DNA of 56,751 nt. Source: a virus. Location of the stretch: the IMG/VR virus record IMGVR_UViG_3300036945_000784, positions 1-56,751 of that record; one strand, 5' to 3'. The notes beneath the pieces are model-generated. The model was not told where the DNA came from. It worked only from the letters and a program-made list of their open reading frames with translations, and searched no databases. This document shows, one piece after another, positions 26,865 through 49,008 of the stretch; within the stretch, counting starts at the first letter, position 1; each line of letters starts with the position of its first letter. A program made the position numbers and the translations under genes.

Positions 26865-29800
26865 TGCCAGTTATCCCATTCTCATCTGCCTCGCGTGCTG
26901 CGGGGGCCGCGGACGACATCACTGAGCAGGTCGAGGCTGAAGAAGCCAGGCGCTATCGCGAAGCCGCCGCCGCCAAGCTCAAGGATCTGATGAACACGCC
27001 GGTCAAACGGTTCGACCCCAACGGCGGGACGTCACCGATCAACATTCCCGAGCCCGTGACGGGCGGCTGGCGGGTCAGGACAAATGGCGACCCGCAGCCA
27101 AATGCGGACGCCCTGCCGGGTGGTGTGTTCAATCGATTGGTTGAGCCAGACCTGGACGACCCCGTCCGTGACGAAACGGGCTTCGGTCAGGTTGGCGAAT
27201 GGACTGAGGATCTGGCGCGCCCTGCTGCCCCCGAGGGCGATAGCGGCAGCGCAGGCATGGGCTCTGGCGGGCCCGGCGGTGAAGGCGGTCTCTCGGATCA
27301 GACGATATCCGATATCCGCGACCGGCTGCGTATTCGGAAGGAAGGCGACAGCACGCGCGAGCTACGCGCTCGGATGCTCAATGCGCCGAACGCGGATCAG
27401 GCGGCGATCGATGCTGACCTTGCCGAACGGCAGGGTGTGAATCGTCTTGAGGTCGAGCGCAACCGCGACACGTTCGTTGCGGTGGACCGTGCGCAGGCGA
27501 TCGATGAACTGCGGAAGACCGCCCCGAAGCTCCGCGCATGGCTGGACTACAACCCCGCCAACCTGGAAGTCGCCCACGACGATGTCGAGAGCCTCGGCTG
27601 GTGGGAGCAAACGCAGGCATTCTTCAGCCCCGGCAATCTGTCGCTGGAGAAGACCGGGCAGGCGCTGCAATCCGGCTTCGTGGACAAGATCCCCGAGCAG
27701 CTTTACGGCCTCGACCAGATGCTTGGCGATGCCAATGCGTCGATCTACAAGGCGCTCCCCGACTGGTTCCCCGGCAAGTTCGGGCTGGTGAACGAGCAGG
27801 TCCAGCGCTCGCTCATGGCCGACATGAAGCGGCAGGAGATGGCCGCGCAGGGCAAGGCGAACGCGCCTGTAGGCGAGACGTGGCTTGAGCGCGGTATCTA
27901 TGGCGCGGCGCAGTCGGCCCCATCCACGCTTGTCTCGCTCGCCATCACGGCGGTCACGAAAAGCCCCGTGGTGGGCTCTGGATCGATGGGAGCGACGACT
28001 GCGGGCGGCGCCTATGGTGAGGCGCGGGACGAGGGCAAGTCGCTGGGCGATGCCTTCCGCTACGCCCTGACGCAAGGCGGCATCGAGACTGCGACCGAGT
28101 TCATCCCGCTGAAGTTCCTCGTGGACGATCTGGCAAAGGATAGCTCGTTCGCAAAGACGTTCTTCCGTCAGGCTGCGGCTGAAGGCATCACCGAACAGGC
28201 GGCGACGTTCCTTCAGGACGCCTCGACGTTTATCGAACTGAACCCCGACAAGACGCTGGGCGAGTTCCTGGCTGAGCGTCCGAACGCCGCCCTTGAGACG
28301 CTGGTTGCGTCCACCATCATGTCAGGCGTCACGACCACGGTCGCGCAGGGGATGCAGGCTGCGGGCGACCAGATCGACAGGAACGCGAGACAGAAGCGTG
28401 CTGAAGCTCGCGCCAACTACCTGACGGACATGAAGAACAACGCCAACTCGTCCAAGCTGCTGAAGCGCGGGACGGTCGGCGCGGACAAGTATCGCGAGGT
28501 CGCTGCGCAGGCGTTGGCTGGCGGGCCGCGTGAGAACCTGTTGATTGACCCCGAGGCCATCCGCTCGCTGGCGCAGGAAAAGGGCGTCACGGTTGAGCAA
28601 CTTGCAACGGCATGGCGCATTGAAGCTGAGACAATCACAACCGCGATGGACACTGGCGATTTCGTCGCTGTGCCGACAGGCAACTATGCTGCCGCGCTGG
28701 TGACAGCCAAGAAGGACATTGGTGTTTCTGGTGATGTGATCGACCAGGCGCTCAGCGCGGACATGAAGTTCTCGCTGGACGATAGCACGGCACGCGAGAG
28801 TGAAGCCGCAAAGGCGGCATTTGAAGAGGCCATGCAGGCGCGGGCCGAAGTTGGTGAGCGCGAGCAGGCTTTTGCGGATGCCGAGGATCGGCTGCGCAAT
28901 ACGATCCGCCAGCAGATTGCCGACCTTGGCGTCTACAATGCCGAGACATCGGAGACGTATGCCGAGGAGCGTGCAGCGAAGGTCGTGACACTGGCGCAGC
29001 GCATGTCGGCGGCGTCAGGTCAGGAAGTCGATCCCGAGCAGCTTTACAAGGACGAGTTCGCGCCAATCGTTCTGGGTGGAACGTGGACAGAGGATAGCGG
29101 CGCCATCGCCCAAAGCATGGTGCGCACGGCCAACCCGCCCGGAGATGTGGAACTTGAGTTTGCTTCCAAGGAGCTTTCCCCGCAGGAGTTCGAAGCGTGG
29201 AAGGGCGCGCGTGACGGTCTCAGCAATGAGGCGATTGCGGAGCGGATGAACGCGGTCGAGCCCGATGCGGTTGTCTCTGCCGACGATGTGAAGCGCTGGC
29301 TGTTCCGTTCCCGCGAGCGTGGGTATGATTCGCAGAAGCCGCATTTCAACGACAGGGGCATGTCGCCGGTCACGCAGCGGCTGATCGAGCTTCGTGCGCG
29401 GGGCGTGAAGAACCCCCAGATTGCGGCGGCGCTGTATCCTGATGTGGATACCGAAACGGCGCTGAACCGCGTCAAGGCGCTCGCCAGCAAGAACAAGGCG
29501 AAGATCGAGGAGCGGAAGGCTGCGCTGGCGTCCCCTGGCAACCGTGGCGAGTTCCAGGCGCAGACGGCGACGATCAAGCGCAAGACAACCCTATTCGAGA
29601 GCCAGCGTCTCGATACGCTCTTGCACGAAGGGGCGCACGAATATCTCGACATCGTCTGGCGCATGTCCCGGCGTGAGGATGCCAATCCGTATATCATCGG
29701 TCATTGGGCGGCGATCCTGAACTGGCATGGGCTCCATCCCGAATGGAGCAATATGTACGACCCCGAGACGGGCTTCATCACTGCCGAGGGGCGCAAGCTT

Positions 29801-32800
29801 CACGAGACATTTGCCGAAGCTTACGGCGTTTACTTCATGACGGGTCAGGCGCCCACAACTGCGCTGCGGTCTGTATTCGAGACAATCAAACAGTGGATGC
29901 TGAGCGTCTACAAAGCCATGAAGCTCGGTATGTCTGCGGCCATCCGCGATGTCGGCCCGGAGACGCGGGCGAAGATCGACGCCGCAGAGAGGGCGGCGGG
30001 GAAGCGGCTGAAGACGCAAGAGATCATCGACCTGATCGTGCCTGCCGAAATCCGTCAGGTCTTTGACCGCTCGCTGGCGAGCGATGAGGCGATCAATGCT
30101 GTTCACGCTGGCTTCGTTGCCGATGGCGAGACGATGGCGAAATCCATCATCGCGAAGCTGGACCCGAAGGGCCTGTGGAAGCCGGAACGCAAAGAGAAGT
30201 TTATGGTTCGAATGCGCGAGCGGTACGCCGCAGCGCGCGATCTGGCGAAAGCCCGACATTCCGCCCTGCTCATTGAGCAACATACGCGCCGCCTGACGAA
30301 TGTTTATCAGGAAGAAGAACGCGAGGTCCGTCGCGAAGTCCAGTCCGAGATCGACGAGCGGCCTGAACAGCGGGCGTTCTACTGGCTCTCGACGGGACAG
30401 TATCGCGACACGCGAGAGGCGCAGGCAGAGGAGGCTGCTGCACAAGCCGAGGCCATGCTCAGCCTTGCGCAGGCTGACGGCTACCTCGGGGCGGACCTCA
30501 AGGAAGCGGCGGAATGGATTGCGGCTCGCGCGAAGGGGCTGGACATGTCCGATGCAGCCCGGAACGCCCGCGCCAAGGAGATGGGGTTCACGGCCAAAGG
30601 CTTCCACGAAACGACCGAGGATTCCGCTGTCGGTATCATAAGCGGCTTCGAACTGAACCGTCGCCGCGCCGCGACTGGCGACCATATCATGCCGGTTGGC
30701 GTGTTCACGAAGCCCACGGCAGGCAAGATCGGCATTGGCAAGGTTCAGGTGCCGCTCCTGATGCGCCTTGGCAACAACCGAACCTTTACGGATCGGGCAG
30801 AGCTGGAGGCGCATCTGCGGCAGGACGCAGCCTATGCGTCGATTGTCGATGAGATGAATGCGGCAGATGCCCGTTACAAGGAAAACTTCAATGCTCGGGA
30901 TGCGGAGTGGCGCAACACGGAACGCCGAAGCCCCGAATGGCGTCAGAGAAGCGACGAACTCAACGCCATCCTGAGCACATGGGAAGCCGAGATCAACCGC
31001 CTTGGCGAACAGGCTCGCAGCCGCGCAACTGACGTTCTCCAGGCTGAAGGGCTCAACTCGATCACGGTCACGAAGGACGAGGGCTCTTTCTCCCGCGCCA
31101 TCAAGACGACCGTGGTGTTCAACCCGAACGATCTACGCTCACCTAACGCGGCCTTTGATCCGGACAAATCGGACAGCGCGCGTCTTCTCGCTCAGGGCGA
31201 CGGTGACTGGATGGGCGCCTTCCTCGACAATTACGTGGAGAACCCGTCAGACCGATCGATTCAGCGCATGGTGCGGAAGATGTTTTCGCAAGGCACGCCG
31301 CCGGCAGTGAGGCTCCTGCGCTATGATGGGAAGACCATTGCCTTCGACGGCTTCAACTACACGCACGACGATGCAATCCAGCTTCTCGGAGCGCCGGAGA
31401 ACGCAGAGCGCGCCTTGATCGAAAGCGGGGATACCCTGGAGACTGTGCGTTGGTACGATGCGGGCGGATCGACGCTCGCGCAGACCGTCCAGCCCACGCG
31501 CCAACTCGACGCATCAGCCGCAACATACTGGGACGAGCCCATGGTGTTGGGTGCGGATGACCGCATCTTTCGGCCCGGCCAGCCTGACGCACTGGGCTTC
31601 ATCACCTCTGCCGAACGCGCTCTCGCGAACCCGCCAAAGCGATTCAAGAACGCGAAAGCCCTATCCGCTGACCAGTGGCGGAAACTCATGCGAGACGGCG
31701 GCGCATCGAAGGAGGCGTTTACTTACCAGATCGAGCCAGCGTTGCGCGCACTCGAGCAGGAAGGTGTCACCGGCGACATTCCAAAGTCGATGTTTGAGGA
31801 AGCTCTAGCGCGCAACCGCACGACATTCACCTCGATCGAGGAAACGCTCGCGACAAAGCCGAAGGGCGGTCTTGAGCCTATCAATGCTTCCGACGCGGCG
31901 AACTATAGTCAATACGTGGCGCCGGGCAGCTGGACGAACTACACGCAGCAACAATTCATCATGCCGGGATTAGACTACCGGAGCCACAACTGGGATGCGT
32001 CTGGAGTTGTCGGACATATCCGCACGACCGAGCGCAAAGTCGGCGGCGAAACTGTCCTGCACGTTGAAGAACTGCAAAGCGACCTTCATCAGGAGGGTGC
32101 GCGTTTCGGATACAAGGGCGAGCGCGTTGACGCAAAGACCCTGCTGGAGCGTGCTGGCGAGGATAAGCAGCGCGCTATGCTGCGCTGGATTGCTTGGCAG
32201 AAGGACAACCCCGGCAAGTTTGAGTTCAAGGCTGGCGAGCGCAATCCCGATGGGAGCGTCAAGCGTCAGGGCGGCTTTTGGACGGACGACGCTGTCGGTG
32301 CAGAGCTCATGCGAGAGGCTGAGGCCGCGGTTCAGCGGGAATACGACGCACTAAATGCTGCACAACAGGAGCGCGACACTCCGCAGCCGCCGCGCGCGCC
32401 AGTCGAGAACTGGGAGGAACCTTTCGTCCGGCATATTCTGCAGCGAGCAGCGAAAGATGGGTACAAGACCGTCACGTTCCCGACCCATGATTCACTCCAT
32501 GAAGTGCTGCGCAACGAGGGAACTGACAAGTTTTACGACGAGCGCCTACCCAACACGCTAAGCCGCGTAGCCAAGTCACTTGGCGTAACCGTCGGCAAAG
32601 AAACGCTGGATTTAGGTCTGAGGGTTAAGCGCGAAAAAGACACTGACGGCTCGACCATCTACAGCCTAGTAAACAAGGAAGGCCTGTTCGTCGAATGGGT
32701 GGACGGAGCAGATCACGGCAAGGCGGTAATCGCAGAGCGCAGCAGCGTGCCTGCGATTCAACTGACGCCGCAGGCGATTACCAAGCTTGCTGAAGGCGTT

Positions 32801-35800
32801 GCGCTATATCAGACGGGCGACGGCGCTGGGCGCACGACGCCGCCCCCAAACCTCCCCCCCATGCGCCTCAACCTCCAAGCCGTGCGCGACCAGTACGGCG
32901 AACAGGCGCTTGCAGAAATCCCGCCCGAGGTTGCAGCCTTCAGCGCGACCGCGAACGATGTCGATATGTACCTTGCGACTGCCCGCGACATCCGCAAGAC
33001 GCTGAACGAGACGCCGCCAAAGTCGCTGTGGAAGTACCTCTCGACGCCGCGCAACATCGGACAGGGCGAGGGCCGTATCAGCTACAGGGGCATCCGCGAC
33101 ACGGACGGCGAGATACTGAAGATCATTGGCGAGAAAAAGGCCGCGCGTGGGCTGATCGCAGACCCGACGAAAGACAGCAAGCGTTCGCGCTCCTATGACA
33201 TGCAGCAGGCCATCGAAGCCGCATGGGAGGCTGGCTATTTCGACGGGGAAGAGCTGCCGACGCCGGCGCAATTCCTCGACACGCTGCGCGCCGACATTGA
33301 TGGGCAGGCCCCGCGCTACCGCCGCGACGACATCCCGACTGTCAGCGTGATCGCCAACGCTGAACGCTGGGAAGCCTGGTTCGACCAGAACGACATCAAC
33401 ATCCACGAGAAGGACGTGAGCGTCCTACGCGCCAAGCTGGCCGTGATGCTGACCGGCCAGGGCGAGAACGCCATCGGCCCGGATGAAGCCGCCCCGTTCT
33501 TCAAGATGCCCAACGGCAGGGCGTTGCTCGACGGCCTGAAGCAAGGCCCGCTGCGTGACAAGCTCATCCGCGAAGAAACCCGCAAGCGCATGATCGAGCG
33601 CAATGGCGACGTGTTCCGTGACGGCACGATCATGGCGAAGGCCGAGGAATACGCCCGCAATGAGCTTCAGCATCGCCAGTGGGAAATCGAGCTGGAAGCC
33701 CTTGCCGAAGCCGGCGGGCAGCGCATTGCGACAAACGCATTGAAGCAGCAGGCCATCGAGAACCTCCGCTCCAAGCAGGTCCGCGAGGTGCTGAACTACA
33801 ACCAGTACCTCACGCTGGAACGTCGCTGGTCGGAAAAGGCGATCAAGGAGAAAGACCCGGCCAAGGCTGCGGAGTATGCGAAGTATCGGCTGCTGAACTC
33901 GCTTCAATACACTGAGGCGAAGAAGATGGCCGAGCAGATCGAGAAAGCGGTCAAGCACGCCAAATCTTTCGATAGCAAGGACAAGCGCATCAAGCTGCTC
34001 AAGGCGGGCAAGGACTACATCCAGCAGATCGATCAGATCCTTGAGGGCTACGAGTTCAAGTCGGTCACGCGGAAGAAGGAGCGCCAGAGCCTCGCCGCGT
34101 GGTTCGCGTCCAAGCAGGCTGCGATCGATCCGCTGCGTGACCTGTCGGGCCTGTCCGAAGAAGAGCTTATGGCGGCGCAGCAGGAAGAGATTGATCGCTC
34201 CGAAGCTCCGGCCGTTATGCAGGCGGACGCCGCTGTCAGGAACTACAAGAGCCTGACCGTCGAAGAACTGATGGCGGTTCGCGACCAGCTTGACATGATC
34301 GAGAAGATGGCTCGCCGCGAGGGCGCGCTGATGGTCGAGGGCGAGCGTCGGCTTCTCAGCCTGGCGCTTGACGACATCGAGGCGCAGGCGATTGCAGCCA
34401 AGCCAGAAGAATTACCCCCGGAATCATACGCCTCCTATGCGCCGAAGGAGAAGAACAAGCGGGGCTTCAAGGAGTTCTTTGTCGAACTGCGGACCATGCA
34501 ATCGATCGTCCGCTTCATCGACGGCATCGACAACGGCCCGCTGGCAAAGAACACGATCCAGAAGCTGAACAGGGCTGGAGCGGAAGGCGTGGCTCGCCTG
34601 CGGCTGGAGGAGGAGCGTGTCGTCGCGCTGTTCCGGGCAGCTTACGGCATCAACGTCGAGGCGCTGCGCAAGGATCAGATCAACATCCCCGGCATTCCGG
34701 TTCCGCTGGCGAAGATGGAGCGCCTGACGGTGGCCTTGTACTGGGGCACAGAGATCAGCCGGCGCCGCATCATGGATGGCTATGGCTGGGACCAGGCGAC
34801 CGTCCAGCGCGTCCTCGATACCCTTGACCAGACCGACTGGAAGTTTCTCACCTCGGTGTGGGACTATGTGAACTCTCTGTACCCCGAGGCGACGAAGGCT
34901 CACGAAGAGGTTCACGGCGTCCCGCTCAGCAAACAGCCGGGCCTGCCGATCGTCACAAAGTACGGAGTCATCCAAGGGGATTATTTCCCCATTCGTTACA
35001 ACCCGCACCAGTCGTCGCGGGCGGATCAGCAGGCCATCACGGACACGGCCAAACAGATCACGGGCAGGGCGGGTACGCGCAAGGCGACAGGCTCTACAAA
35101 GGAGCGCGTCAAGGGCAAGGTGACGATGCCCGTGCTGCTGGATTTCTCCATCACGCTCGGGGCGCATGTGAACGAAGTCGTGGGCAATATCGCCACGCAG
35201 AAGGCCATCCTTGATGCCGGGCGCATCATCGCCCATCCCCGCACGCAGAAGGTCATTGTCTCGCGGCACGGCTGGGTCACGTACAAGGCGCTGATGAGCG
35301 CGATGCGTGACACCCGCAACGGGCTTGCTGGCCCTCGGGGGCCGACAGAGCGCATCATGGTCCGCGTGAGAAACGGCGCAACGAACGTCGCGCTGGGTCT
35401 TAACATCGGCACAGTCATCAAGCAGATGCTTGGCTACACGACATCGATCGTGCGGCTTGGCGACCAGCGCACGGGGCCGATTGCCGGGGCTGGCTGGCTG
35501 CTTCGCGGCATGGTTCGCATGGGCTTCAGTGCAAGCGGGATGCAGAACGGGACGGCGTTCATTCTTGAACGCTCGCCCTACATGCGCGTGCGTATGCAGG
35601 TGATGAACCAGGCGATTGCCGACCAGCAGCGCCGGATCAATGACGGGAACATCAAGGCAGACGCCAAGCGCGCAATCGATGTGGCGTCCATGTTCATGAT
35701 GCAGCGCGTTCAGTGGCTCGCCGTCGATGGGCCTACGTGGCTTGGCGCATACGAGAAATTCACGGCCAGCGGCATGTCGGAGAAGGATGCCGCGGCTGGC

Positions 35801-36439
35801 GCAGATCAGATCGTCATCGACGCACAAGGCAGCGGTGAGATATTCCAGGTCTCCGCGTTCCAGCGCGGCGGGCCGATGCAGCGGATATTCACGAACTACA
35901 TCACGGCAGCCATTGCGAACTGGAACCTTGCGGTCAACACCACGCGCCAGACCAACTTCCGCAATCCGGGACAAGCTGCAATCTGGGCAATGAACATGGG
36001 CGTGCTCATGGTTGTGCCCGTGATCGGCAGCATGGCGGTTGCGGCGATGATGTCGCCGGGCGGTGGCGATGAAGATGAGCCGCTTGAAGAACAGTACATC
36101 CGCGAGCAGGTCGCTTTCCTGATCGGGCCGCTCGGTCTCTTCGGGCAGTTGGGCAGCGCTGTCGCCGGGTTTGGCTATAATGGCCCGCAAGGAACGCGCG
36201 CCTTTGAGGAGGCAAGCAAGGTCATCACGGAAACATTCACAGGCGCAGAGCGCGTGCGTGAGGGGACTGCGACGACGAAAGATGCGATCGATATCCTGCG
36301 CCCGGCCAACATGGCGGCGGGCGTCTGGTTTGGCTATCCAGCCGCCGCTCTGGACAGGTTCGTCCGCGGCGCTGAAGCTCTGATCAGCGGAAGGACTGAG
36401 GACCCGAAAGCCCTTCTCTCAGGGCCTCCGAGAGAGTAG
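26864..36439 (+). CDS. Giant multidomain internal virion protein (polyvalent), 3191 aa
   Basis: It occupies 17% of the genome in the T7 gp16 slot, so it is expected to be packaged and ejected into the host. Domains by residue: 345-420 is a hydrophobic Gly/Ala-rich segment. 915-990 is a zincin-like region with HEGAH (921-925, HExxH) and a downstream HETFAEAYG (980-988) offering a Glu ligand. About 1240-1440 is a candidate ADP-ribosyltransferase-like domain ending VVFNPNDLRSPNAAFDP. About 1580-1990 is a phage-specific domain with HVEELQSDLHQEGARFGY. 2100-2550 is coiled coil. 2840-3050 is a conserved-looking C-terminal region with QGSGEIFQVSAFQRGGP and FTNYITAAIANW, followed by a hydrophobic stretch. 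Domain calls are by eye; catalysis is untested. Confidence 0.85.
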   Translation: MPVIPFSSASRAAGAADDITEQVEAEEARRYREAAAAKLKDLMNTPVKRFDPNGGTSPINIPEPVTGGWRVRTNGDPQPNADALPGGVFNRLVEPDLDDPVRDETGFGQVGEWTEDLARPAAPEGDSGSAGMGSGGPGGEGGLSDQTISDIRDRLRIRKEGDSTRELRARMLNAPNADQAAIDADLAERQGVNRLEVERNRDTFVAVDRAQAIDELRKTAPKLRAWLDYNPANLEVAHDDVESLGWWEQTQAFFSPGNLSLEKTGQALQSGFVDKIPEQLYGLDQMLGDANASIYKALPDWFPGKFGLVNEQVQRSLMADMKRQEMAAQGKANAPVGETWLERGIYGAAQSAPSTLVSLAITAVTKSPVVGSGSMGATTAGGAYGEARDEGKSLGDAFRYALTQGGIETATEFIPLKFLVDDLAKDSSFAKTFFRQAAAEGITEQAATFLQDASTFIELNPDKTLGEFLAERPNAALETLVASTIMSGVTTTVAQGMQAAGDQIDRNARQKRAEARANYLTDMKNNANSSKLLKRGTVGADKYREVAAQALAGGPRENLLIDPEAIRSLAQEKGVTVEQLATAWRIEAETITTAMDTGDFVAVPTGNYAAALVTAKKDIGVSGDVIDQALSADMKFSLDDSTARESEAAKAAFEEAMQARAEVGEREQAFADAEDRLRNTIRQQIADLGVYNAETSETYAEERAAKVVTLAQRMSAASGQEVDPEQLYKDEFAPIVLGGTWTEDSGAIAQSMVRTANPPGDVELEFASKELSPQEFEAWKGARDGLSNEAIAERMNAVEPDAVVSADDVKRWLFRSRERGYDSQKPHFNDRGMSPVTQRLIELRARGVKNPQIAAALYPDVDTETALNRVKALASKNKAKIEERKAALASPGNRGEFQAQTATIKRKTTLFESQRLDTLLHEGAHEYLDIVWRMSRREDANPYIIGHWAAILNWHGLHPEWSNMYDPETGFITAEGRKLHETFAEAYGVYFMTGQAPTTALRSVFETIKQWMLSVYKAMKLGMSAAIRDVGPETRAKIDAAERAAGKRLKTQEIIDLIVPAEIRQVFDRSLASDEAINAVHAGFVADGETMAKSIIAKLDPKGLWKPERKEKFMVRMRERYAAARDLAKARHSALLIEQHTRRLTNVYQEEEREVRREVQSEIDERPEQRAFYWLSTGQYRDTREAQAEEAAAQAEAMLSLAQADGYLGADLKEAAEWIAARAKGLDMSDAARNARAKEMGFTAKGFHETTEDSAVGIISGFELNRRRAATGDHIMPVGVFTKPTAGKIGIGKVQVPLLMRLGNNRTFTDRAELEAHLRQDAAYASIVDEMNAADARYKENFNARDAEWRNTERRSPEWRQRSDELNAILSTWEAEINRLGEQARSRATDVLQAEGLNSITVTKDEGSFSRAIKTTVVFNPNDLRSPNAAFDPDKSDSARLLAQGDGDWMGAFLDNYVENPSDRSIQRMVRKMFSQGTPPAVRLLRYDGKTIAFDGFNYTHDDAIQLLGAPENAERALIESGDTLETVRWYDAGGSTLAQTVQPTRQLDASAATYWDEPMVLGADDRIFRPGQPDALGFITSAERALANPPKRFKNAKALSADQWRKLMRDGGASKEAFTYQIEPALRALEQEGVTGDIPKSMFEEALARNRTTFTSIEETLATKPKGGLEPINASDAANYSQYVAPGSWTNYTQQQFIMPGLDYRSHNWDASGVVGHIRTTERKVGGETVLHVEELQSDLHQEGARFGYKGERVDAKTLLERAGEDKQRAMLRWIAWQKDNPGKFEFKAGERNPDGSVKRQGGFWTDDAVGAELMREAEAAVQREYDALNAAQQERDTPQPPRAPVENWEEPFVRHILQRAAKDGYKTVTFPTHDSLHEVLRNEGTDKFYDERLPNTLSRVAKSLGVTVGKETLDLGLRVKREKDTDGSTIYSLVNKEGLFVEWVDGADHGKAVIAERSSVPAIQLTPQAITKLAEGVALYQTGDGAGRTTPPPNLPPMRLNLQAVRDQYGEQALAEIPPEVAAFSATANDVDMYLATARDIRKTLNETPPKSLWKYLSTPRNIGQGEGRISYRGIRDTDGEILKIIGEKKAARGLIADPTKDSKRSRSYDMQQAIEAAWEAGYFDGEELPTPAQFLDTLRADIDGQAPRYRRDDIPTVSVIANAERWEAWFDQNDINIHEKDVSVLRAKLAVMLTGQGENAIGPDEAAPFFKMPNGRALLDGLKQGPLRDKLIREETRKRMIERNGDVFRDGTIMAKAEEYARNELQHRQWEIELEALAEAGGQRIATNALKQQAIENLRSKQVREVLNYNQYLTLERRWSEKAIKEKDPAKAAEYAKYRLLNSLQYTEAKKMAEQIEKAVKHAKSFDSKDKRIKLLKAGKDYIQQIDQILEGYEFKSVTRKKERQSLAAWFASKQAAIDPLRDLSGLSEEELMAAQQEEIDRSEAPAVMQADAAVRNYKSLTVEELMAVRDQLDMIEKMARREGALMVEGERRLLSLALDDIEAQAIAAKPEELPPESYASYAPKEKNKRGFKEFFVELRTMQSIVRFIDGIDNGPLAKNTIQKLNRAGAEGVARLRLEEERVVALFRAAYGINVEALRKDQINIPGIPVPLAKMERLTVALYWGTEISRRRIMDGYGWDQATVQRVLDTLDQTDWKFLTSVWDYVNSLYPEATKAHEEVHGVPLSKQPGLPIVTKYGVIQGDYFPIRYNPHQSSRADQQAITDTAKQITGRAGTRKATGSTKERVKGKVTMPVLLDFSITLGAHVNEVVGNIATQKAILDAGRIIAHPRTQKVIVSRHGWVTYKALMSAMRDTRNGLAGPRGPTERIMVRVRNGATNVALGLNIGTVIKQMLGYTTSIVRLGDQRTGPIAGAGWLLRGMVRMGFSASGMQNGTAFILERSPYMRVRMQVMNQAIADQQRRINDGNIKADAKRAIDVASMFMMQRVQWLAVDGPTWLGAYEKFTASGMSEKDAAAGADQIVIDAQGSGEIFQVSAFQRGGPMQRIFTNYITAAIANWNLAVNTTRQTNFRNPGQAAIWAMNMGVLMVVPVIGSMAVAAMMSPGGGDEDEPLEEQYIREQVAFLIGPLGLFGQLGSAVAGFGYNGPQGTRAFEEASKVITETFTGAERVREGTATTKDAIDILRPANMAAGVWFGYPAAALDRFVRGAEALISGRTEDPKALLSGPPRE

Positions 36440-36448
36440 AATCGGAGC

Positions 36449-37020
36449 ATGGCAAAGTGCAGCGCAAACGACTGTGAGCGCGAGGTTCTGGCAAAGGATC
36501 TTTGCGGCAAGCATTACTCGCGCAAACGACTTACTGGTTCGCTTGATGCAAAGGCGCAGTGTGAGGCTGGCGCAGGTGTAAAGTTTCTTGAAGCTCTCCG
36601 TGGATTTAAGGGGGAGGCTTGCGTTCGTTGGCCCTACGGAATTGGAGGCCCGGATACGGCGCCGTGACGTGGCGAGGCAAGCGAATGGGCGCGCACAGAG
36701 CAATGTGCGAAATGGAGCACGGGCCTCCGTCGTTCCCGAAAGCGGATGCCGCGCATCGATGTGGCAACAGGTGGTGCGTAAATCCTAACCATCTGCGCTT
36801 CGCGACGAGAAGGCAGAACGTAGAAGACGCGCGCGAGCACGGAACACTTATCACGGGCGAAACACACCCCGGCACAAGGCTAACACCTGACGACGTCCGA
36901 AAAATCTACATCGACAAGCGTTCTGATAGCGAAATAGCCCTAGAATACGGCTGTAGCTCGTCCGCCGTCTTTTACATTCAAAGCGGACGAACATGGCGCT
37001 CAGTGACCGGCGCTAAGTAG
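36449..37020 (+). pseudogene. HNH endonuclease gene split by a frameshift
   Basis: Two overlapping frames together match the intact HNH protein at 47,158-47,754. Frame 1 (36,449-36,667) supplies the N-terminal Cys cluster (CSANDCEREVLAKDLCGKHY) and CVRWPYG. The -1 frame (open 36,619-37,020) supplies PGYGAVTWRGKRMGAHRA, then HRCGNRWCVNPNHLRF and a C-terminal HTH. The junction lies near 36,640-36,655 in GGAATTGGAGGCCCGG. It is either a disabled mobile nuclease, a sequencing indel, or a programmed frameshift. It sits between the giant gene and the tail spike, a typical homing spot. Confidence 0.75.
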
Positions 37021-40623: not shown

Positions 40624-41409
40624 ATGTTCCGGCCGGAAGAAACGCATGAGTTCTGGCGGCGCCAGTCGGTCGATCACATGATCGGCACGCTGGTCGCCAT
40701 GCAGCGCGAGAGCAGCGACATGCTGCGTGAGCGCCTTGATGCTGAAATCTTCAGTGCCCGCCGCGGTGTTGCGTCAGTCTTGATCCGTGGACGAGGCGTC
40801 GAGGTTGGTGCTGGATCTCGCCCCTGGCCGTTACCCGCCTCAGCCTCCTGCCTGTATGGTGACGTGCGTGACGCGGCAGGGCTTGAGGCATATTTCGGAA
40901 ACTGTGTCGGACCTTGCGAGTTCGTGGACGCGCAGACGTTCGACGTGGTGGCGCCGGCTTCGCTCGACTTCATCGTTCACGCGCACGTCATCGAGCATCT
41001 GTTCGACCCCTTCGGTTCCATCCGTGAGGCGCTGGCGCGTCTAAAGCCTGGCGGCATCCTGCTGATGGCCGTTCCAGACATGCGGCACACCTTCGACAAG
41101 TGGCGGGCGCCGACCATGTTCGACCACCTTCTGGCAGACATGAAAGACGGCGGCGCTGGCACTAAACTTGCCGCCTATCTTGAGCACATCCGAGACGTTC
41201 ATCCCCACCTGGCTGAACCGATTCCTGATGATCAGCACGAGGCGGAGGCGCGGCGTATCATGGCCGCTGGCTTTGACGTTCACGTCCACGCGTGGACTAT
41301 GGAGACGCTGCAAGAGCACATCGCGCGCCTTGCGCCTGAGTTCGGCTTTACGGTCGAAGCTTGCCTGTTCGTGGTGAACGAAACAATCGTTGCGCTTCGC
41401 AAGCGCTGA
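40624..41409 (+). CDS. SAM-dependent methyltransferase (class I)
   Basis: A 261-aa enzyme with a Rossmann fold: SAM-binding GVEVGAGSRPWPLP (about residues 59-72), then LDFIVHAHVIEHLFDPFGSI and LKPGGILLMAVPDMRHTFDK. This pattern is typical of methyltransferases in polysaccharide and glycan gene clusters rather than DNA methylases. It directly follows the tail spike, so it may modify host surface glycan or the virion. It is a probable accessory (moron) gene; substrate is unknown. Confidence 0.75.
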   Translation: MFRPEETHEFWRRQSVDHMIGTLVAMQRESSDMLRERLDAEIFSARRGVASVLIRGRGVEVGAGSRPWPLPASASCLYGDVRDAAGLEAYFGNCVGPCEFVDAQTFDVVAPASLDFIVHAHVIEHLFDPFGSIREALARLKPGGILLMAVPDMRHTFDKWRAPTMFDHLLADMKDGGAGTKLAAYLEHIRDVHPHLAEPIPDDQHEAEARRIMAAGFDVHVHAWTMETLQEHIARLAPEFGFTVEACLFVVNETIVALRKR

Positions 41410-41426
41410 TACCCGGAGACATTGTC

Positions 41427-42029
41427 ATGTCGGAAGCCGCCGCCCATCACAGGGCGCTGTTCGTTGCGTTTACTGAAATGGGAGTGCGGGTCGATATCCG
41501 CCGAACGACAGAAAACTCCGCTGAAGTTCTGGAGCATTCGCGGCGCAAACCATCGCTTACGCCTGTCATGCACGGTAGCGGCGTCACCAATGCGGACGCA
41601 GACGCGCTGCTGTCGCGCATTGCCGAACTCAGCAGAGAGAACGAACAGCTTCGCGCCGCAGCCGAAGCCCCGCTTCTTCCCGCCCCTGATGCGCTCATGT
41701 CGGATTGGGGAGAGGTGGGGCCGTATCCTGGTATCCCTGACGACTTCGGCCAGCTCATGACGGGCGATGAAACGCTGGAGCAGGCCGTCGAGCGCATGAC
41801 GCTGGGCGTCGATGAGCTTCTGGACATGGCAACCGTGCTTTCCGATCAGTCGCTTGAACTGGCGCTCTGCACAGTCCCGCCTGAGCGGGTGAACGAATGG
41901 ACCGAGAAGCTCATCACCGAGAAGGCGCGTCTGCGGAGGCTGCGCGGCACGGTCGATGAGAACTTCGGGCGCGAGAACCTCGTCAGCCGTGTGCAGGGCA
42001 TGTTTGCGCAGGTGGGAGCAAAGCGATGA
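41427..42029 (+). CDS. Unknown helical protein, 200 aa
   Basis: A mainly helical soluble protein with a short coiled coil (LLSRIAELSRENEQLRAAAE) and an acidic middle part. ATG 41,427 has GGAG 10 bases upstream. It begins the accessory block leading to the Hsp70-like gene. No family is recognised. Confidence 0.65.
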   Translation: MSEAAAHHRALFVAFTEMGVRVDIRRTTENSAEVLEHSRRKPSLTPVMHGSGVTNADADALLSRIAELSRENEQLRAAAEAPLLPAPDALMSDWGEVGPYPGIPDDFGQLMTGDETLEQAVERMTLGVDELLDMATVLSDQSLELALCTVPPERVNEWTEKLITEKARLRRLRGTVDENFGRENLVSRVQGMFAQVGAKR

Positions 42030-42050: not shown

Positions 42051-42479
42051 ATGGAACTTCTGCTGAAGGAGCAGCTTGAGCTGCAAAAACGCTCGTCTGA
42101 GCGATCCGATTGGGAAAAAATCGCAGCGTTGCAAGAGGCCGTTTCAGTCCTGAAGTCACGCTTTGAAGGCGCGCTGGACAGCATTCGCGAAAAGCTTGGC
42201 GATGCTGTGAGTGATGAAGACATCAAGGAGATTCGACGCGAGTGGGAGACGGCTATGCGTGATGCACTATCAGGTGTTCGTGAGCACTTCGCCACGGCCA
42301 ATGAGAACCAGTCCAATGCGCTTCTGGCGCAAGTGGAATTGATGCTCGCACGCGATCGGGAGATGGCGGCGAACGAAGCAAAGAAGACGCGCCAACAGGT
42401 GCTGTTTCTGATCCTTGGAGCGGTGCTTTCCATTTTCGGGGCGCTGTTTGTCTTCTGGGAAACCACCGCGCGCATGTAG
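42051..42479 (+). CDS. Coiled-coil protein with C-terminal membrane anchor
   Basis: A 142-aa protein: residues 1-115 are helical and charged (coiled coil), residues 118-138 a transmembrane segment (VLFLILGAVLSIFGALFVFW), then a short tail. Tail-anchored topology puts the coil in the cytoplasm. It is adjacent to a larger membrane coiled-coil gene and the Hsp70-like gene, suggesting a shared complex. Confidence 0.65.
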   Translation: MELLLKEQLELQKRSSERSDWEKIAALQEAVSVLKSRFEGALDSIREKLGDAVSDEDIKEIRREWETAMRDALSGVREHFATANENQSNALLAQVELMLARDREMAANEAKKTRQQVLFLILGAVLSIFGALFVFWETTARM

Positions 42480-42501: not shown

Positions 42502-43887
42502 ATGAAAATCCTCGGATGGGAGTGGCAGGGCAATCACCCTGACCACAAGGAGCGGCTTGCCGCCACGCGTATCCTGCGCTGGTCCAAGAGCGGCCTGATC
42601 GGAGCCTCTGTCGGCTCGATCATCGCCGTCTATGTTCTCGACGCAATCTTCTTCATTGCGTGGGCGCCGACCTGGTATCTCGTGCCGGTCTTCCTCCTGA
42701 TCGCGCTGACCATTCGTTCCTGCGGCGTGTTCGCTGGTCCGGTCATGCAGCGCATCAGGGGCATGGCCGACCTGAAGAAAGAGGCGCGCACGATCCGCAC
42801 GCTTTCCGTCGTGGCGGGGCTTCTCTGCCTTGTGCCGGCGCTTTCGTTCTTTGCTGGCGGTCACAAGGTCCAGACGCAGGGCGCGACCATTGCCGAAGCG
42901 ACAACGGCAGTCTCCGACACCAACAAGGCCGCGCGCATCGAAACGCTGCAAACGCAGATTGCCCGCATCGAAAAGAACCGCGACGACTCGATCTCTGAAG
43001 CGAATATGTCGATCCAGCTCATCGCGCAGGACGGCGTTCCGGGAATCAGCCCCGCAGACAACCAGAACATCGCCCTGCTGCGTCAGGAGATCCAGAAGTA
43101 CCGCACGGACGCCAGCGGAGAAATCAACTCGCTGGAAACGCAGATTGCCGAGATCGAGCAGCAGCGGGAAACGATCCAGACGGAGACAGCGGAGGTCAAG
43201 ACCGAAGTTTCGCCCGCCGACGCCATCTTCTCGGTGCTTGGCTCTATCTGGGGTGACGCCCTTATCTGGGGCCTGACGATCCTGTTCCTGTTCGCGCTGT
43301 GGATCGAAGCTATGGCGTTCTTTGGCCTTGGCGCGATCGAGGGGCTGGTTGGCCGTCTGGATGCAGCCATCAAGCGTGTCGAGATCGAAGCCATCGTCCA
43401 CAAGGCGCAAGTCGAGGCAGAGCTGTCCCGACAGCAGGCAATGGCAGAACAGGAACTAGCCGAGATCAGGCTGCGGGCAGAGGAGGCCCGTGTTCGCCTG
43501 GAGGCGATCAAGGCGGGCGATGATCCGGACATCTACGACGCGATGCGCGCGGCAGAGCGCAACCTCAAGCGCGCTGAAGCCAACGCGATCATCTCTGGCA
43601 TCCTCCAGAGAGCGGAGAATGCGCAGAACCGCGCCGTCACGGATGCGCCGACCGTCACCCTGCTTCAGACAGCGGACATCCCGGCGCAAGATACCGCGCC
43701 ATCCGAGATACCCCAGCCGACGCCTGACCCGATCGTTCTGGTCGATCCCGCGCCCGTCAAGCAAGGGCCACGGAAGGGCGGCAAGAACTCGTCATTCATG
43801 AAGGCCGCAACCAAAGCGGCGCGTAACCGCGTGCTTATCCTCGCTGACCGCAGCAATGCCCAAGCCATGAAGGTTGCCGCACAATGA
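42502..43887 (+). CDS. Polytopic membrane protein with long coiled coil, Hsp70 partner candidate
   Basis: A 461-aa protein. Three N-terminal membrane segments (about 33-52, 56-73, 96-112) are followed by a non-cytoplasmic coiled coil (120-235: IETLQTQIARIEKNRDD, INSLETQIAEIEQQRE), a fourth membrane segment near 245-275 (WGDALIWGLTILFLFALWI), then a long charged cytoplasmic helix (290-370) and a Pro/Thr linker with a basic end. Its stop overlaps the Hsp70-like ATG (ATGA), so the two are made together. The topology mirrors the protein at 9,921-10,781. Function is unknown; a membrane platform for the Hsp70-like ATPase is inferred. Confidence 0.75.
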   Translation: MKILGWEWQGNHPDHKERLAATRILRWSKSGLIGASVGSIIAVYVLDAIFFIAWAPTWYLVPVFLLIALTIRSCGVFAGPVMQRIRGMADLKKEARTIRTLSVVAGLLCLVPALSFFAGGHKVQTQGATIAEATTAVSDTNKAARIETLQTQIARIEKNRDDSISEANMSIQLIAQDGVPGISPADNQNIALLRQEIQKYRTDASGEINSLETQIAEIEQQRETIQTETAEVKTEVSPADAIFSVLGSIWGDALIWGLTILFLFALWIEAMAFFGLGAIEGLVGRLDAAIKRVEIEAIVHKAQVEAELSRQQAMAEQELAEIRLRAEEARVRLEAIKAGDDPDIYDAMRAAERNLKRAEANAIISGILQRAENAQNRAVTDAPTVTLLQTADIPAQDTAPSEIPQPTPDPIVLVDPAPVKQGPRKGGKNSSFMKAATKAARNRVLILADRSNAQAMKVAAQ

Positions 43888-45419
43888 TTGACTGGATCGC
43901 GATTGACCTCGGTACATGCAACTCAGCAGTTGCCATCTATGGACCTCTTGGCCCCGAAGTCCTGAAGATCGACGGATCGGAACTGGTTCCGTCTGCCGTC
44001 ATGCTGGTTCACACCGACAACCCCGAAAATCCGTGGGAAGTGGTTGTGGGGCAGCGCGCCTTGCGTGCGCGTGAACGTTCGCCGCGTTCGCCCTACTGCT
44101 TCACCAGCTTCAAGCGCCAGCTAGGGGCCGTCTACAACCCGGAGGAAGCCTATCCGGAGCAGATGTGCGAGGGCGTCGATGCGGAAGGCAAGCGCACCGG
44201 AATGCTCGCCTACCAAGGCTATGACGGGTTCACTTATCCGCCCGAGGAACTGGTCAGTTATGTGCTGATCCATCTTCGGGAAGCGGCTGAAGAAAAGCTG
44301 GGCAAGTCGGTCAAGAACGCCATCATCTGCGTACCTTCCGCCTACAATATCGCCCAGAGCAACGCACTGCGCAAAGCGGCAGAGATGGCGGGATTCGAAG
44401 AAGTCGAATTGCTGCACGAGCCGGTTGCCGCGGCCATTGCGCATGGCTTTAAGGAAGAAGCCGAGAAGGTCAGCCGCATCTTCGTGGTGGACGTTGGGGC
44501 TGGTACGACTGACTGTGCAGCGTTCGAGATCGGCGGCGGTCTGTTCCGCGTGCTGGGGACCAACGGTGCGGCGCTTGTTGGCGGCGACGATTGGGATCTG
44601 CGTCTCCGCAGCCTGGTCATGACGCTGCATGAGTTTGAGCACGAGAACTCCGCACTTGCCACGCAGCCTGACGCGCAGCGCATGTTGTTGATCGAAGCCG
44701 AAGCGGCCAAGCGCCGACTGTCGGAAGACGACCTCACCGAGTTCCGCGTCGAGGACATCGACATCGACAAGAAGACCAACGAGGATGTTCACGTCATCCA
44801 GCGCATCAGCCGCGACCACATGGACGAGGCGACCAAGGAACTGCTGCGCGACATTGAAGACGCGATGACGCGCACAATGGCCGAAGCCAAGGAGAAAGAC
44901 CCCCGCTTTTCGGTGCATGATATCGACTGCGTAATTCTGGTGGGCGGGCAGACGCGCGTGAAATCGATCCAGAGGAAGGTTGCGCACTTCTTTGGGAAGG
45001 CGCCGGCCTCAGGCGTTGACCCCGAATTGGCCGTCGTGCTTGGGGCCGCCGTGAAGGCAGGCATCCGCGAAGGCAGGCTGGCAAGCATCACCATCGAGAA
45101 CATCACATCGCACGGCTTCTCAATCGAGACGCACGACAAGCCGGAAGACGTGGCAACCGAGATCGTTCGCAAGGGGACGGCCTACGGCACGAAGGCAACG
45201 TGGTGGCTTAGGCCGCGTGGCGATGCAGGCCAGGCCGTGATGACGCTGAAGCTCTTGCAGGGCGATTCCAAGGAGCCGGGCGAGAACATCCTTGTATGGG
45301 AGCATCAGATCGCGATCGATGCCGAGGCTCCGGAAGACGTGCAGCTTGACGTGGAAATCGGCCCGTCAGGCGAGCCTATCCTTGACGTGGCTGGTGTATC
45401 ATTTGGCAGGGCGGCATGA
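43884..45419 (+). CDS. Hsp70/DnaK-like ATPase, lid-less
   Basis: A 511-aa actin-fold chaperone homologue. Phosphate-1 motif DLGTCNS (8-14), connect region VPSAYNIAQSNALRKAAEMA (150-169) with LLHEPVAAAIAHG, phosphate-2 VVDVGAGTTD (201-210), GGDDWDLRL (233-241), adenosine motif ILVGGQTRVKSIQ (351-363), and DPELAVVLGAAVKAG (379-393). Residues about 400-511 resemble the beta part of the substrate domain; the helical lid of DnaK (638 aa) is missing. Phages rarely encode Hsp70. It is coupled to a membrane coiled-coil gene upstream and to the endolysin downstream by ATGA overlaps. Folding of virion proteins, a membrane ATPase function, or anti-defence activity are all possible. Confidence 0.88.
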   Translation: MIDWIAIDLGTCNSAVAIYGPLGPEVLKIDGSELVPSAVMLVHTDNPENPWEVVVGQRALRARERSPRSPYCFTSFKRQLGAVYNPEEAYPEQMCEGVDAEGKRTGMLAYQGYDGFTYPPEELVSYVLIHLREAAEEKLGKSVKNAIICVPSAYNIAQSNALRKAAEMAGFEEVELLHEPVAAAIAHGFKEEAEKVSRIFVVDVGAGTTDCAAFEIGGGLFRVLGTNGAALVGGDDWDLRLRSLVMTLHEFEHENSALATQPDAQRMLLIEAEAAKRRLSEDDLTEFRVEDIDIDKKTNEDVHVIQRISRDHMDEATKELLRDIEDAMTRTMAEAKEKDPRFSVHDIDCVILVGGQTRVKSIQRKVAHFFGKAPASGVDPELAVVLGAAVKAGIREGRLASITIENITSHGFSIETHDKPEDVATEIVRKGTAYGTKATWWLRPRGDAGQAVMTLKLLQGDSKEPGENILVWEHQIAIDAEAPEDVQLDVEIGPSGEPILDVAGVSFGRAA

Positions 45420-46681
45420 ACGACCATCTGACCGTAGGCGAATGGTTCTATCGCGAGATAGACGAGTTCGAGAACGCGCCTGCGGACTGTCGCCAGACAG
45501 CGGACGGCTGCGCTCTGGAAGCCTATCTCTGCCCCAGCAATCAGTGGACCATCGGTGATGGCTGCTGCTTCTGGGAGGATGGGCGTCCGGTCCAGCAAGG
45601 CGACACGCTGCCCGATGACGAACACCTGCCTGAGCGCCGGCGAAAGCTGCTGGGCTTCAACGCCAAGTATTGCGAGGAGTATGTCCGCAGGTACGTCACG
45701 GTCCCGCTGACGCAGAACCAGTTCGATGTGCTGTGCAGTTTCCGGTTCAACACCCGTGAGACAACGCTGAGCGGATCTTCGCGGCTGTTGCCTGCGATCA
45801 ATGCGCAGAAGTGGCAGGATGCCGCTGTCGCAATGACGGAGTTCGTCTACGGCTCTGGTTCAAAGCGCGGCCCGGTCAAGCTTCCGCCGAAGGGCTGGGA
45901 CGTGGAAAAGAGCGGCGGGCAATGGTGGGCAATCCCGCCCGATCACCTGACTGGCGCTGAGCGCATTGAGCTTGGCTCAGAGGAGAAGTGGTATCCCTAC
46001 CAGGACGCGCACAGGGGCCTGCTGAGACGCCGTCTCTGGGGCGGGCTCGTCTTCCTCGATTATGACCCCCGCGACGTGACGAAAGACAACGACGTTGCTT
46101 TGCCGACCAAGGCCAAGCTTTTGTCCACGGGCGTCTGGCGCGATTCCATCAGCACGGAAGGGCTCACGACGCTGGCGCATGTTCGGATGCGCGCCAAGCC
46201 TCTCCCGCCCGCAGAGCTTGTCCTCACCACCCCCATCAAAGCTGATCCCGTCGCTGTGCCAGCGGCAGGAACGGCGGGCCAGCCTGTGCCGCTGCCCGGC
46301 CCAGTACAGGCTGGACCTGCAATCAAGACTTCCGCGAGTGGTTCCTCGGAAGCGGTGTCGGTCAAGCCAACGGTCCCAGCTCCCCAGCCAGTACCTACGG
46401 CTCGACCGGCGCCTGCTTCTGTGCCTGCGGTAATTCCCGCGCCGTCGCTCCCGAAGGATGCGGCGCCTGCGAGCATTGAGCCGAAAGACATGGTGATGTC
46501 CAAGCGCTTCTGGGGCCTGACGGTCACGGCGCTTGGCACAACGAACCTGCTCCCTCAAGCCGCGCAAACGTGGGTCACGAACGAGGGCAACCGCGAGCTG
46601 ATCACATGGCTGATCGTCGTGGCAATCGGGTTCGCGCTCTACAAGTATGGGCAGCACAAAGCGAAGAAGCCGCTGAAATGA
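45416..46681 (+). CDS. Endolysin: lysozyme domain with C-terminal membrane segment
   Basis: A 421-aa peptidoglycan hydrolase of the GH24 (T4 lysozyme-like) type. Residues 28-50 give the active-site region, TADGCALEAYLCPSNQWTIG. The family triad Glu-8-Asp/Cys-5-Thr aligns to D30-C39-T45, so the catalytic Glu appears replaced by Asp. A catalytic-domain remainder (to about 220) includes QFDVLCSFRFNTR. A Pro/Ala linker (275-350) and a C-terminal hydrophobic segment (395-410, LITWLIVVAIGFALYKYG) with a basic end follow. It overlaps the Hsp70-like and i-spanin genes by ATGA. Confidence 0.8.
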   Translation: MNDHLTVGEWFYREIDEFENAPADCRQTADGCALEAYLCPSNQWTIGDGCCFWEDGRPVQQGDTLPDDEHLPERRRKLLGFNAKYCEEYVRRYVTVPLTQNQFDVLCSFRFNTRETTLSGSSRLLPAINAQKWQDAAVAMTEFVYGSGSKRGPVKLPPKGWDVEKSGGQWWAIPPDHLTGAERIELGSEEKWYPYQDAHRGLLRRRLWGGLVFLDYDPRDVTKDNDVALPTKAKLLSTGVWRDSISTEGLTTLAHVRMRAKPLPPAELVLTTPIKADPVAVPAAGTAGQPVPLPGPVQAGPAIKTSASGSSEAVSVKPTVPAPQPVPTARPAPASVPAVIPAPSLPKDAAPASIEPKDMVMSKRFWGLTVTALGTTNLLPQAAQTWVTNEGNRELITWLIVVAIGFALYKYGQHKAKKPLK

Positions 46682-46986
46682 ACATCGCAGCGATCGGGAC
46701 GGGCATCTGGGGCTTTCTCAAGCGCATCCCGGATTGGGTGCTCTGGGCTCTCGCGGCCATCATCTTCCTGAAGTTCGTGGACATGCGGGCAGAGCATCGC
46801 GGGCGCAAGGAAGAGGGCGCCAAGCGCGACAAGGAAGCCGCCGAAGTCGAGCGTGAAGTTGTCACCAACATTCAGGAGAATACCGATGCAGTCATTGCTG
46901 AGGCTGACGCTGTGCGCAGCCATACCGCTGCTGGCGTCCTGCCAGACGGAAGCTCGACCCTCGAAAAGCATCATTACCGCGACTGA
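46678..46986 (+). CDS. i-spanin (Rz-like)
   Basis: A 102-aa inner-membrane lysis protein: one N-terminal membrane segment (residues 8-35, DWVLWALAAIIFLKF) and a charged periplasmic coiled coil (KRDKEAAEVEREVVTNIQEN). It works with the overlapping outer-membrane lipoprotein to fuse the two membranes at the end of lysis. It starts with an ATGA overlap after the endolysin. The identification rests on topology and the nested Rz1-like gene. Confidence 0.75.
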   Translation: MNIAAIGTGIWGFLKRIPDWVLWALAAIIFLKFVDMRAEHRGRKEEGAKRDKEAAEVEREVVTNIQENTDAVIAEADAVRSHTAAGVLPDGSSTLEKHHYRD

Positions 46987-47161
46987 AGGGGCCATCTGGA
47001 AAGAGGCGCTTTGCTCAACCGGCAAGGCAATCCTGATCTCGCGCGGCGATGTCCTGACCGTCGAAACAGCCGAGCAGGTTGGCGACCACAATAATTCGCT
47101 CTGGTGCGCCTGCCCTGAGAAGCGCCCGGCGAGCTTCGACGCGTCCATTTGCAAGGTCTAG
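46886..47161 (+). CDS. o-spanin lipoprotein (Rz1-like), overlapping Rz
   Basis: A 91-aa protein starting inside the Rz gene in another frame. The signal LLRLTLCAAIPLLASC has a lipobox with Cys19. The mature part contains SRGDVLTVETAEQVGDHN, similar to Rz1 proteins of alphaproteobacterial phages. AGGAG 8 bases upstream supports ATG 46,886. The 101-bp overlap with Rz is the classic Rz/Rz1 arrangement. Confidence 0.78.
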   Translation: MQSLLRLTLCAAIPLLASCQTEARPSKSIITATEGAIWKEALCSTGKAILISRGDVLTVETAEQVGDHNNSLWCACPEKRPASFDASICKV

Positions 47162-47754
47162 GCGACGTCCAGCCACTTCCAGTTCTGACCGTCTGTCATC
47201 GCTCCAATGGTGCGGCGGGCAACGCCGAACATCTCAGCCAGTCGGCGCTGTGAGTATTCGCCAGTCGCATACAGGCGGCGGACTTCGCGAACCTGATCCT
47301 CGGTCAGCGTGGAGTTAGGGTGGGTGTTGCCTTGACACGCTGTGCCGTGAATCAGCCTGTCGGCCTGGTTCTCGGCAGGAGTGGCCCAGCGCACATGAAA
47401 CGGTGAGAAGCAGCCTAGATGGCCCTTGCCGCAGTTGTGCGCCGCCTCGTGCTCTGGGGAGGGTGGCGGGCCGTGCATGTGCTCACACGCGACGCGGTGC
47501 GCGCCAATCGTCTTGCCGTTGATGTAGACCTTGCCCCGTCCCTTGTTGCTTTTGGAGTACGGCCAGATCATGCAATCGCCCGGCTTCGCGGTTGCCAGTG
47601 CATCACTGAGAAATTCCAATGCTTCTCCGGGCGAGGCGTTTCGGCCTAGCGGATTGCCGTTCCTCTTCCATCGTTTGTAGTGAGCGTTGCACCATTCTTT
47701 GTGGGACGCTGGCTTGTCACACCCATCAACCGAACATATCCGCTGAGTATCCAT
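47158..47754 (-). CDS. HNH endonuclease, intact paralogue
   Basis: A 198-aa protein with an N-terminal Cys/His cluster (CSVDGCDKPASHKEWCNAHY), a DNA-binding/HNH middle (GKTIGAHRVACEHMHGPPPS, then HNCGKGHLGCFSPFHVRW), and a C-terminal HTH (EVRRLYATGEYSQRRLAEMF). It is the intact relative of the frameshifted gene at 36,449-37,020. It is inserted in antisense between spanin and holin candidates, typical of a free-standing homing nuclease. ATG 47,754 has GGAGAGG 5 bases upstream. Confidence 0.82.
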   Translation of the reverse strand: MDTQRICSVDGCDKPASHKEWCNAHYKRWKRNGNPLGRNASPGEALEFLSDALATAKPGDCMIWPYSKSNKGRGKVYINGKTIGAHRVACEHMHGPPPSPEHEAAHNCGKGHLGCFSPFHVRWATPAENQADRLIHGTACQGNTHPNSTLTEDQVREVRRLYATGEYSQRRLAEMFGVARRTIGAMTDGQNWKWLDVA

Positions 47755-47874
47755 GACGCCTCTCCAAAGGCCGTTGTGGTCAGGCGAGGGTGAGCGCTCC
47801 AACGCTCCCTTCGCCGCTCTCCGGATTCTAGCCGTCCGAACGAGGACATCAACCTAGAAATGGAGACTAAAGCC

Positions 47875-48958: not shown

Positions 48959-49003
48959 CGGAGTGTGGCGCAGTCTGGTAGCGCATCTGCTTTGGGAGCA
49001 GAT
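48959..49003 (+). other. attP: attP core: 5' half of tRNA-Pro (TGG)
   Basis: The 45 bases reproduce a proline tRNA from its first base through the anticodon stem: acceptor CGGAGTG, D-arm GCGC-AGTCTGGTA-GCGC, anticodon stem TCTGC, loop TTTGGGA (anticodon TGG), stem GCAGA. The T-arm and the matching acceptor strand CACTCCG are absent, so it is not a functional tRNA. It lies 5 bp from the end of the integrase gene. The expected attachment site is the host tRNA-Pro, with crossover in the anticodon region. Confidence 0.88.
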
Positions 49004-49008
49004 GATCA

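Follow-up and report, generated by a model that had tools for sequence, protein, structure and literature searches.

The window analysed here is a stretch of 56,751 nucleotides and comprises an entire IMG/VR record. It encodes a DnaB-like helicase, a terminase, T7-like tail proteins and an integrase, and represents a temperate, podovirus-like phage. An ORF of 511 aa with an ATG start is located on the plus strand at 43884–45419 (stop codon included), in the position where the original prediction had placed a phage-encoded Hsp70. The protein matches the HSP70 profile PF00012 with E=5.9e-76 and 256.4 bits against a curated cut-off of 20.6, its residues 5–476 being aligned to profile positions 2–454 of 599. 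A phmmer search against the PDB finds E. coli DnaK (E=7.7e-55, residues 5–491). The equivalog cut-offs of NCBIfam are missed both for DnaK (246.2 against 648 and 245.6 against 822.55) and for HscA (197.5 against 620). The protein also matches PHROG 22485, whose function is unassigned, thus phage databases had already clustered Hsp70-like proteins. An actin-like fold of the MreB or ParM type had been considered as the alternative and does not hold, as MreB reaches 59.2 bits compared with 256.4 for HSP70 and about 110 extra residues align to the substrate-binding beta-domain (SBD-beta).

Three parts of the protein can be delineated on the plus strand by alignment with DnaK. The nucleotide-binding domain (NBD) covers residues 1 to about 396 (43884–45071). 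All three nucleotide-binding motifs that had been quoted for the ORF are present. DLGTCN is found at residues 8–13, DVGAGTTD at 203–210 and GGQTR at 354–358, together with K77 and E179, and the DNA encoding these motifs is unique within the window. In DnaK numbering, the core ATPase residues D8, N13, K70, E171, D194, T199, D201, G341, G342 and R345 are retained. The phage proteins were aligned with E. coli DnaK, HscA, HscC and YegD and other DnaKs, and the ATP-binding and catalytic set (D8, K70, E171, D194, T199, D201 and G341-G342) is conserved across all aligned phage proteins. The interdomain linker is found at 45078–45107, where LASITIENIT replaces VKDVLLLDVT of DnaK. It is followed by the predicted SBD-beta, residues 409–511 (45108–45416), which is supported by phmmer as well and whose alignment runs to about DnaK 505. 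No phage member of the alignment has residues past about DnaK 507, hence the helical lid (SBD-alpha) is absent; the sequence stops where the lid would start, as had been predicted. The substrate region had also been described as shortened. This needs correction, as the alignment has the beta-sandwich kept and the lid alone missing. An AlphaFold model of the protein was computed from five close sequences, a shallow input, with a mean pLDDT of 43.8, too low for the fold to be read from it. Judged from the alignment, the ORF is a real Hsp70 with intact ATPase residues and a retained SBD-beta, and it is lidless.

The residues that contact J-proteins are changed. In all phage proteins of the alignment, R167 is replaced by E, D, K or Y and N170 by D, H or E; in DnaK, R167 is a contact site for the J-domain motif HPD (PMC8215388). 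D393 of the linker is kept in most of the phage relatives and is N in the window Hsp70. In DnaK this residue also serves the J-domain and allosteric coupling. A J-domain (PF00226) is not matched in the window, neighbours of the Hsp70 gene included, and a J-protein could still come from the host. The simplest reading of these substitutions is that the phage Hsp70 would work without DnaJ.

The Hsp70 gene lies in a compact operon on the plus strand. It is preceded by three genes, here named A, B and C. Gene A (41361–42029, start codon uncertain) has a conserved C-terminal part of about 100 aa and a variable N-terminus. In the window and its relatives this N-terminal part is highly variable, as if it belonged with the changing spike genes upstream. 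Gene B (42051–42479) encodes 142 aa with a soluble part and, according to hydropathy and relatives, a C-terminal membrane anchor at residues 117–135. Gene C (42502–43887) encodes a membrane protein of 461 aa, as indicated by hydropathy and AlphaFold. The Hsp70 gene is followed by a phage lysozyme with a C-terminal hydrophobic anchor (45416–46681, Pfam PF00959), an Rz-like inner-membrane spanin candidate (46684–46986, from its position, its overlap with Rz1 and its conservation in relatives) and an Rz1-like outer spanin (46853–47161, PHROG 1275 Rz-like spanin, E=4.6e-8). The ATGA overlaps proposed on both sides of the Hsp70 gene are found, with gene C stopping at 43887 and the lysozyme gene beginning at 45416. 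The locus had been placed between tail spike and lysozyme; its assignment to the late/lysis block stands, but a methyltransferase gene and A, B and C intervene between spike and Hsp70.

Several other features were observed around this block. An HNH endonuclease gene (36619–37020, Pfam/PHROG match) is located directly before the spike gene, and a similar HNH-like ORF is found after the spanins on the opposite strand (47158–47802). Homing genes may target the spike/lysis region. An ORF of 3,191 aa (26864–36439), with partial relatives in contigs L026 and L040, probably encodes a giant virion protein. Beside the integrase gene, the stretch 48960–49007 (GTGTGGCGCAGTCTGGTAGCGCATCTGCTTTGGGAGCAGATGATC) resembles the 5' half of a tRNA-Pro(TGG) gene and is likely attP; its peptide signature VAQSGSASALGAD recurs at the end of L047.

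The gene is not confined to the window. Thirty IMG/VR contigs, the window included, carry both C and a lidless Hsp70, some of them as near-copies (L033–L035, L036/L037). The 29 further contigs dispose of the concern that the gene might be missing from all related phages. The closest relatives of the window Hsp70 are from four contigs, with identities of 99, 99, 99 and 80%, and wherever the protein is complete its length is 486–513 aa. With the other type of C as query, 27 viral contigs were found. Hsp70 lies behind C in 26 of them and the 27th ends within C. The reverse query with Hsp70s of other classes returned the same contigs and three more (L074, L077, L078), in each of which C comes first. 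The genes are arranged as A-B-C-Hsp70, usually with lysozyme and Rz/Rz1 behind them, and the stop codon of C and the start codon of Hsp70 overlap as ATGA in 24 of the 30 contigs. Extra DNA is present between Hsp70 and lysozyme in L027, L048 and L050. In L047 an insertion of 0.75 kb with an HNH-endonuclease-like ORF (1296–2018) separates C from Hsp70. In some temperate phages, an Hsp70 family is thus located before the lysis genes with a constant partner, the membrane protein C.

The presence of an Hsp70 in a small phage is rare, as had been anticipated: among 50,697 phage records no match of at least 60% identity was found. A scan of genome contigs gave ordinary DnaKs only (L014, L015). Phage Y6 (L016) was considered as a further small-phage member of the family and rejected; its record, which is unverified, encodes a full-length DnaK that groups with E. 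coli DnaK. Several further short records with Hsp70 matches look like host DNA and were also discarded. Alignment and gene content together bear out the central claim, namely that a small temperate phage of the podovirus-like type encodes an Hsp70 without a lid.

In a maximum-likelihood tree, 22 phage proteins form one group with a support of 95/100 and a stem of 1.4 changes per site. This clade is apart from bacterial DnaK, HscA and HscC. It is also apart from the DnaKs of huge phages, which are of full length and branch within the bacterial DnaKs. The window Hsp70 thus groups with phage homologues and is not a recent capture from a host, since the phages form one long-stemmed group separate from bacterial DnaKs. 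Against its four relatives the window Hsp70 has a dN/dS of 0.02–0.11, which marks it as a maintained gene. The range in the whole family is 0.02–0.16, indicating purifying selection.

The constancy of the operon bears on a role in the folding of virion proteins, one of the functions originally proposed. The Hsp70 would then be a general folding helper for virion proteins, for example the 3,191-aa protein or the large tail spike. The gene is located late and a large beta-helical spike is encoded shortly upstream, and spike proteins of other phages require folding help. But a general helper is hardly expected to be lidless, with changed J-domain contacts and with no J-domain encoded in the window. 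In addition, the spike genes upstream differ among relatives whereas A-B-C-Hsp70 stays the same, and the partner that recurs throughout is a membrane protein. We regard this role as most unlikely, given a membrane/lysis module that persists next to variable spike genes.

The membrane protein C consists of a body and a C-terminal tail. In the window C, hydropathy places transmembrane (TM) segments at about residues 35–53, 60–78, 101–119 and 258–276. A coiled coil lies between TM3 and TM4, and the fourth segment is followed by a proline-rich linker and a basic tail. With low confidence, AlphaFold predicts helices only and draws the tail as helical too. The count of four segments is taken from the clearest members (window and L046), as the simple hydropathy cut-off is not reached by several segments in some relatives. 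The tail should face the cytosol, provided that the N-terminus does so and the membrane is crossed four times. Some resemblances within C were discarded. An HPD tripeptide in the N-terminus of the window C (NHPDHK, residues 12–14, 42535–42543) was considered as a J-domain motif; it is part of no J-domain, is absent in the other type of C and is probably due to chance. Matches to HlyD and TonB reflect mere coiled-coil and proline-rich resemblance. A peptidoglycan-binding-like motif in type-2 C (LLLAQGLYFGSVDGIRQDKT) found no support in Pfam and PDB. Between the coils of type-2 C, LLLAQGLYFGSVDGIRQDKTESAM (7320–7410 in L003 and the same region in other members) resembles peptidoglycan-binding repeats, also without Pfam support, and a 979-aa ORF in L002 (155–3094) has a stretch similar to this LLLAQGLYFGSVDGIRQDKTESAM motif.

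The body of the window C is found in the window only. Compared with the four close-relative contigs (L002–L005), the body is replaced and the C-terminal tail is shared. This conserved, putatively cytosolic tail (43738–43884, plus strand, delimited by comparison with relatives) co-segregates with the type of Hsp70. Tails fall into class I (window, L002–L005), class II (most others), class III (L045/L046) and a class IV-like group (L026, L047, L077, L078). Identity of the tails correlates with identity of the Hsp70s (Spearman 0.88; partial 0.87 given the C body), a value reached in 0 of 2000 permutations, a test that leaves the physical linkage of tail and Hsp70 in place. The correlation of the tails with the C bodies is 0.14 (partial 0.05). 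Single pairs illustrate this. The C bodies of L005 and L048 are 100% identical, with tails of 36% and Hsp70s of 39% identity. For the window and L002 the bodies are 22%, the tails 85% and the Hsp70s 99% identical. Within class II, L032 and L038 have tails of 72% and Hsp70s of 97% identity, so the match holds by class and is not fine-grained. In four pairs the exchange points are located in the proline-rich linker. As tail and Hsp70 co-vary and the change-over lies in the linker, the tail-Hsp70 block appears to be swapped as a unit, flanked by the conserved C body upstream and the lysis genes downstream.

Such a pattern might also arise from linked passengers, i.e. from adjacency and gene-junction signals only, with a job of the Hsp70 that is unrelated to C. 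The tail adjoins the Hsp70 start, so a single crossover in the linker keeps both together even without contact between the proteins. The crossovers sit in a repetitive proline-coding linker, and the last residues of the tail may overlap the ribosome-binding site; the tail end may indeed be kept in part for translating the next gene. Among the compared contigs no recombinant between tail and Hsp70 was seen. Adjacency would hardly account for a heptamer pattern that is kept at the same place in all intact tails even though the tail classes are just 15–48% alike, nor for the survival of this pattern in L047, where the 0.75 kb insertion lies before the Hsp70 gene. We therefore consider the passenger explanation unlikely.

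The heptamer is NRVLILA in the window (43825–43845, plus strand), and every intact tail has one of NRVLILA, ERLLVIG, ERLIVIP, DAYIPVP, EAYIVVP and DQFIAVP. DnaK has been co-crystallized with the peptide NRLLLTG, and its published binding profile combines a hydrophobic core, with L, I or M in central position, and flanks that are preferably basic (PMC2717214). With an ad hoc peptide score, the heptamer region is the top cytosolic 13-mer in classes I–III, not in L026, L047 and L077. The resemblance to the DnaK peptide is suggestive of a docking site for Hsp70 in the C tail. The best explanation of all these observations, which we favour with moderate confidence on the basis of sequence comparison, is that the phage proteins constitute a phage-specific, lidless and J-independent Hsp70 subfamily dedicated to the membrane protein C.

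Two other readings involve the membrane and have to be weighed against this dedicated pairing. Hsp70s hold tail-anchored proteins before membrane insertion. As a late holdase, the phage Hsp70 would keep the hydrophobic ends of the lysozyme, of B and of C soluble until insertion, the C tail being one client among others. B has a C-terminal membrane segment, a hydrophobic C-terminal region is found in 21 of 21 lysozymes examined, and the SBD-beta is retained. However, the type of Hsp70 tracks the C tail (0.88) above the lysozyme (0.59) and B (0.43), and extra DNA can separate the lysozyme gene from Hsp70, which makes the holdase reading rather improbable. The lysozyme ends themselves consist of a proline/alanine-rich linker and a hydrophobic segment, and at least three C-terminal types are shuffled among the window phage and its relatives. 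In the other reading, C and Hsp70 would form a membrane complex that, in the lysogen or late during infection, keeps out incoming DNA or counteracts a defence of the host. Superinfection exclusion or anti-defence would suit temperate phages (an integrase is present) that carry membrane proteins in cassettes open to exchange, and the swapped C bodies look like diversification. But PADLOC gave weak matches only, and the genes lie in a late operon beside the lysozyme gene in a conserved order, not as a scattered accessory gene. We consider this role very unlikely. Among the roles originally offered, that of a membrane machine fits best.

For an Hsp70 dedicated to C, the following mechanism can be proposed. 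Synthesis from the adjacent gene would bring the Hsp70 to C, where it would grip the hydrophobic-basic heptamer in the cytosolic tail and thereby become tethered to the inner membrane. With neither lid nor J-protein, it would be the tail that triggers hydrolysis, and nucleotide exchange would be fast. From Hsp70 biochemistry, lidless binding is expected to be weak and fast, which would suit a partner that is tethered and locally abundant. In the course of the ATP cycle C would then be held or let go, and its coiled coil would extend into the periplasm. Our guess is that this cycle could control or time lysis, acting with the tail-anchored lysozyme, B and the spanins, or serve another late membrane step. 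Lysis is the first guess because the neighbours are a lysozyme with a hydrophobic C-terminus and Rz/Rz1; gene position is its sole basis. It is conceivable, if still doubtful, that a J-protein-free Hsp70 with the C-tail peptide as its sole trigger acts as a membrane-tethered ATP-driven clamp, serving phages as a lysis clock or to generate force across the inner membrane. The arrangement suggests an ATP-driven membrane device of a kind without earlier description.

A comparison with known systems shows where the phage family stands. With bacterial DnaK it shares the NBD motifs, the catalytic residues and, by sequence, SBD-beta at about 30% identity. It differs from DnaK in being lidless, in its changed J-domain contacts and linker, in having no DnaJ beside the gene and in forming a separate clade. 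HscA is a precedent for dedication, as this Hsp70 binds a single peptide in a single client (PMC8215388). The proposed principle would be shared with HscA and the LPPVK peptide of IscU, namely one Hsp70, one client and one short peptide, but HscA has a lid and the J-partner HscB, and its client is a soluble Fe-S scaffold and not the tail of a membrane protein. E. coli YegD (450 aa) is also without a lid, yet in the alignment it is without SBD-beta too, has R at the K70 position and sits on a very long branch. DnaKs are likewise encoded by huge phages, such as Lak phages, uncultured phages of 480–735 kb and moraphages; those examined are full length (627–656 aa), in contrast to the present family. 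In moraphages, DnaK occurs together with DnaJ, both recently derived from bacteria (PMC12619734). The closterovirus Hsp70h is likewise a divergent Hsp70 specific to viruses and is paired with a viral partner dedicated to it (p61, PMC12978162), but it is from plant RNA viruses and is likened here by description and not by sequence. A 2026 survey of viral HSP70s covers closteroviruses, giant viruses and one phage DnaK more than 96% identical to a bacterial one, and reports no lidless phage family (PMC12978162). Neither a lidless phage Hsp70 nor an A-B-C-Hsp70 operon is described in the literature searched. The phage protein is surely an Hsp70 by descent, but its domain content, partner and context set it apart from the members described so far.

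The usual view of Hsp70s is that of general chaperones dependent on J-proteins, on a lid and often on an exchange factor. These phages appear to retain the ATPase and peptide-binding core only, paired with C and preserved across divergent phages. To our knowledge, no adjacent ATP-using component is generally described for phage lysis genes, and the phage Hsp70 adds one next to them. If the docking is true, the family would provide a naturally minimal Hsp70 for which one client peptide is defined, along with four or more matched classes of tail and Hsp70, and the lid-free and J-free coupling of an Hsp70 would become directly testable.
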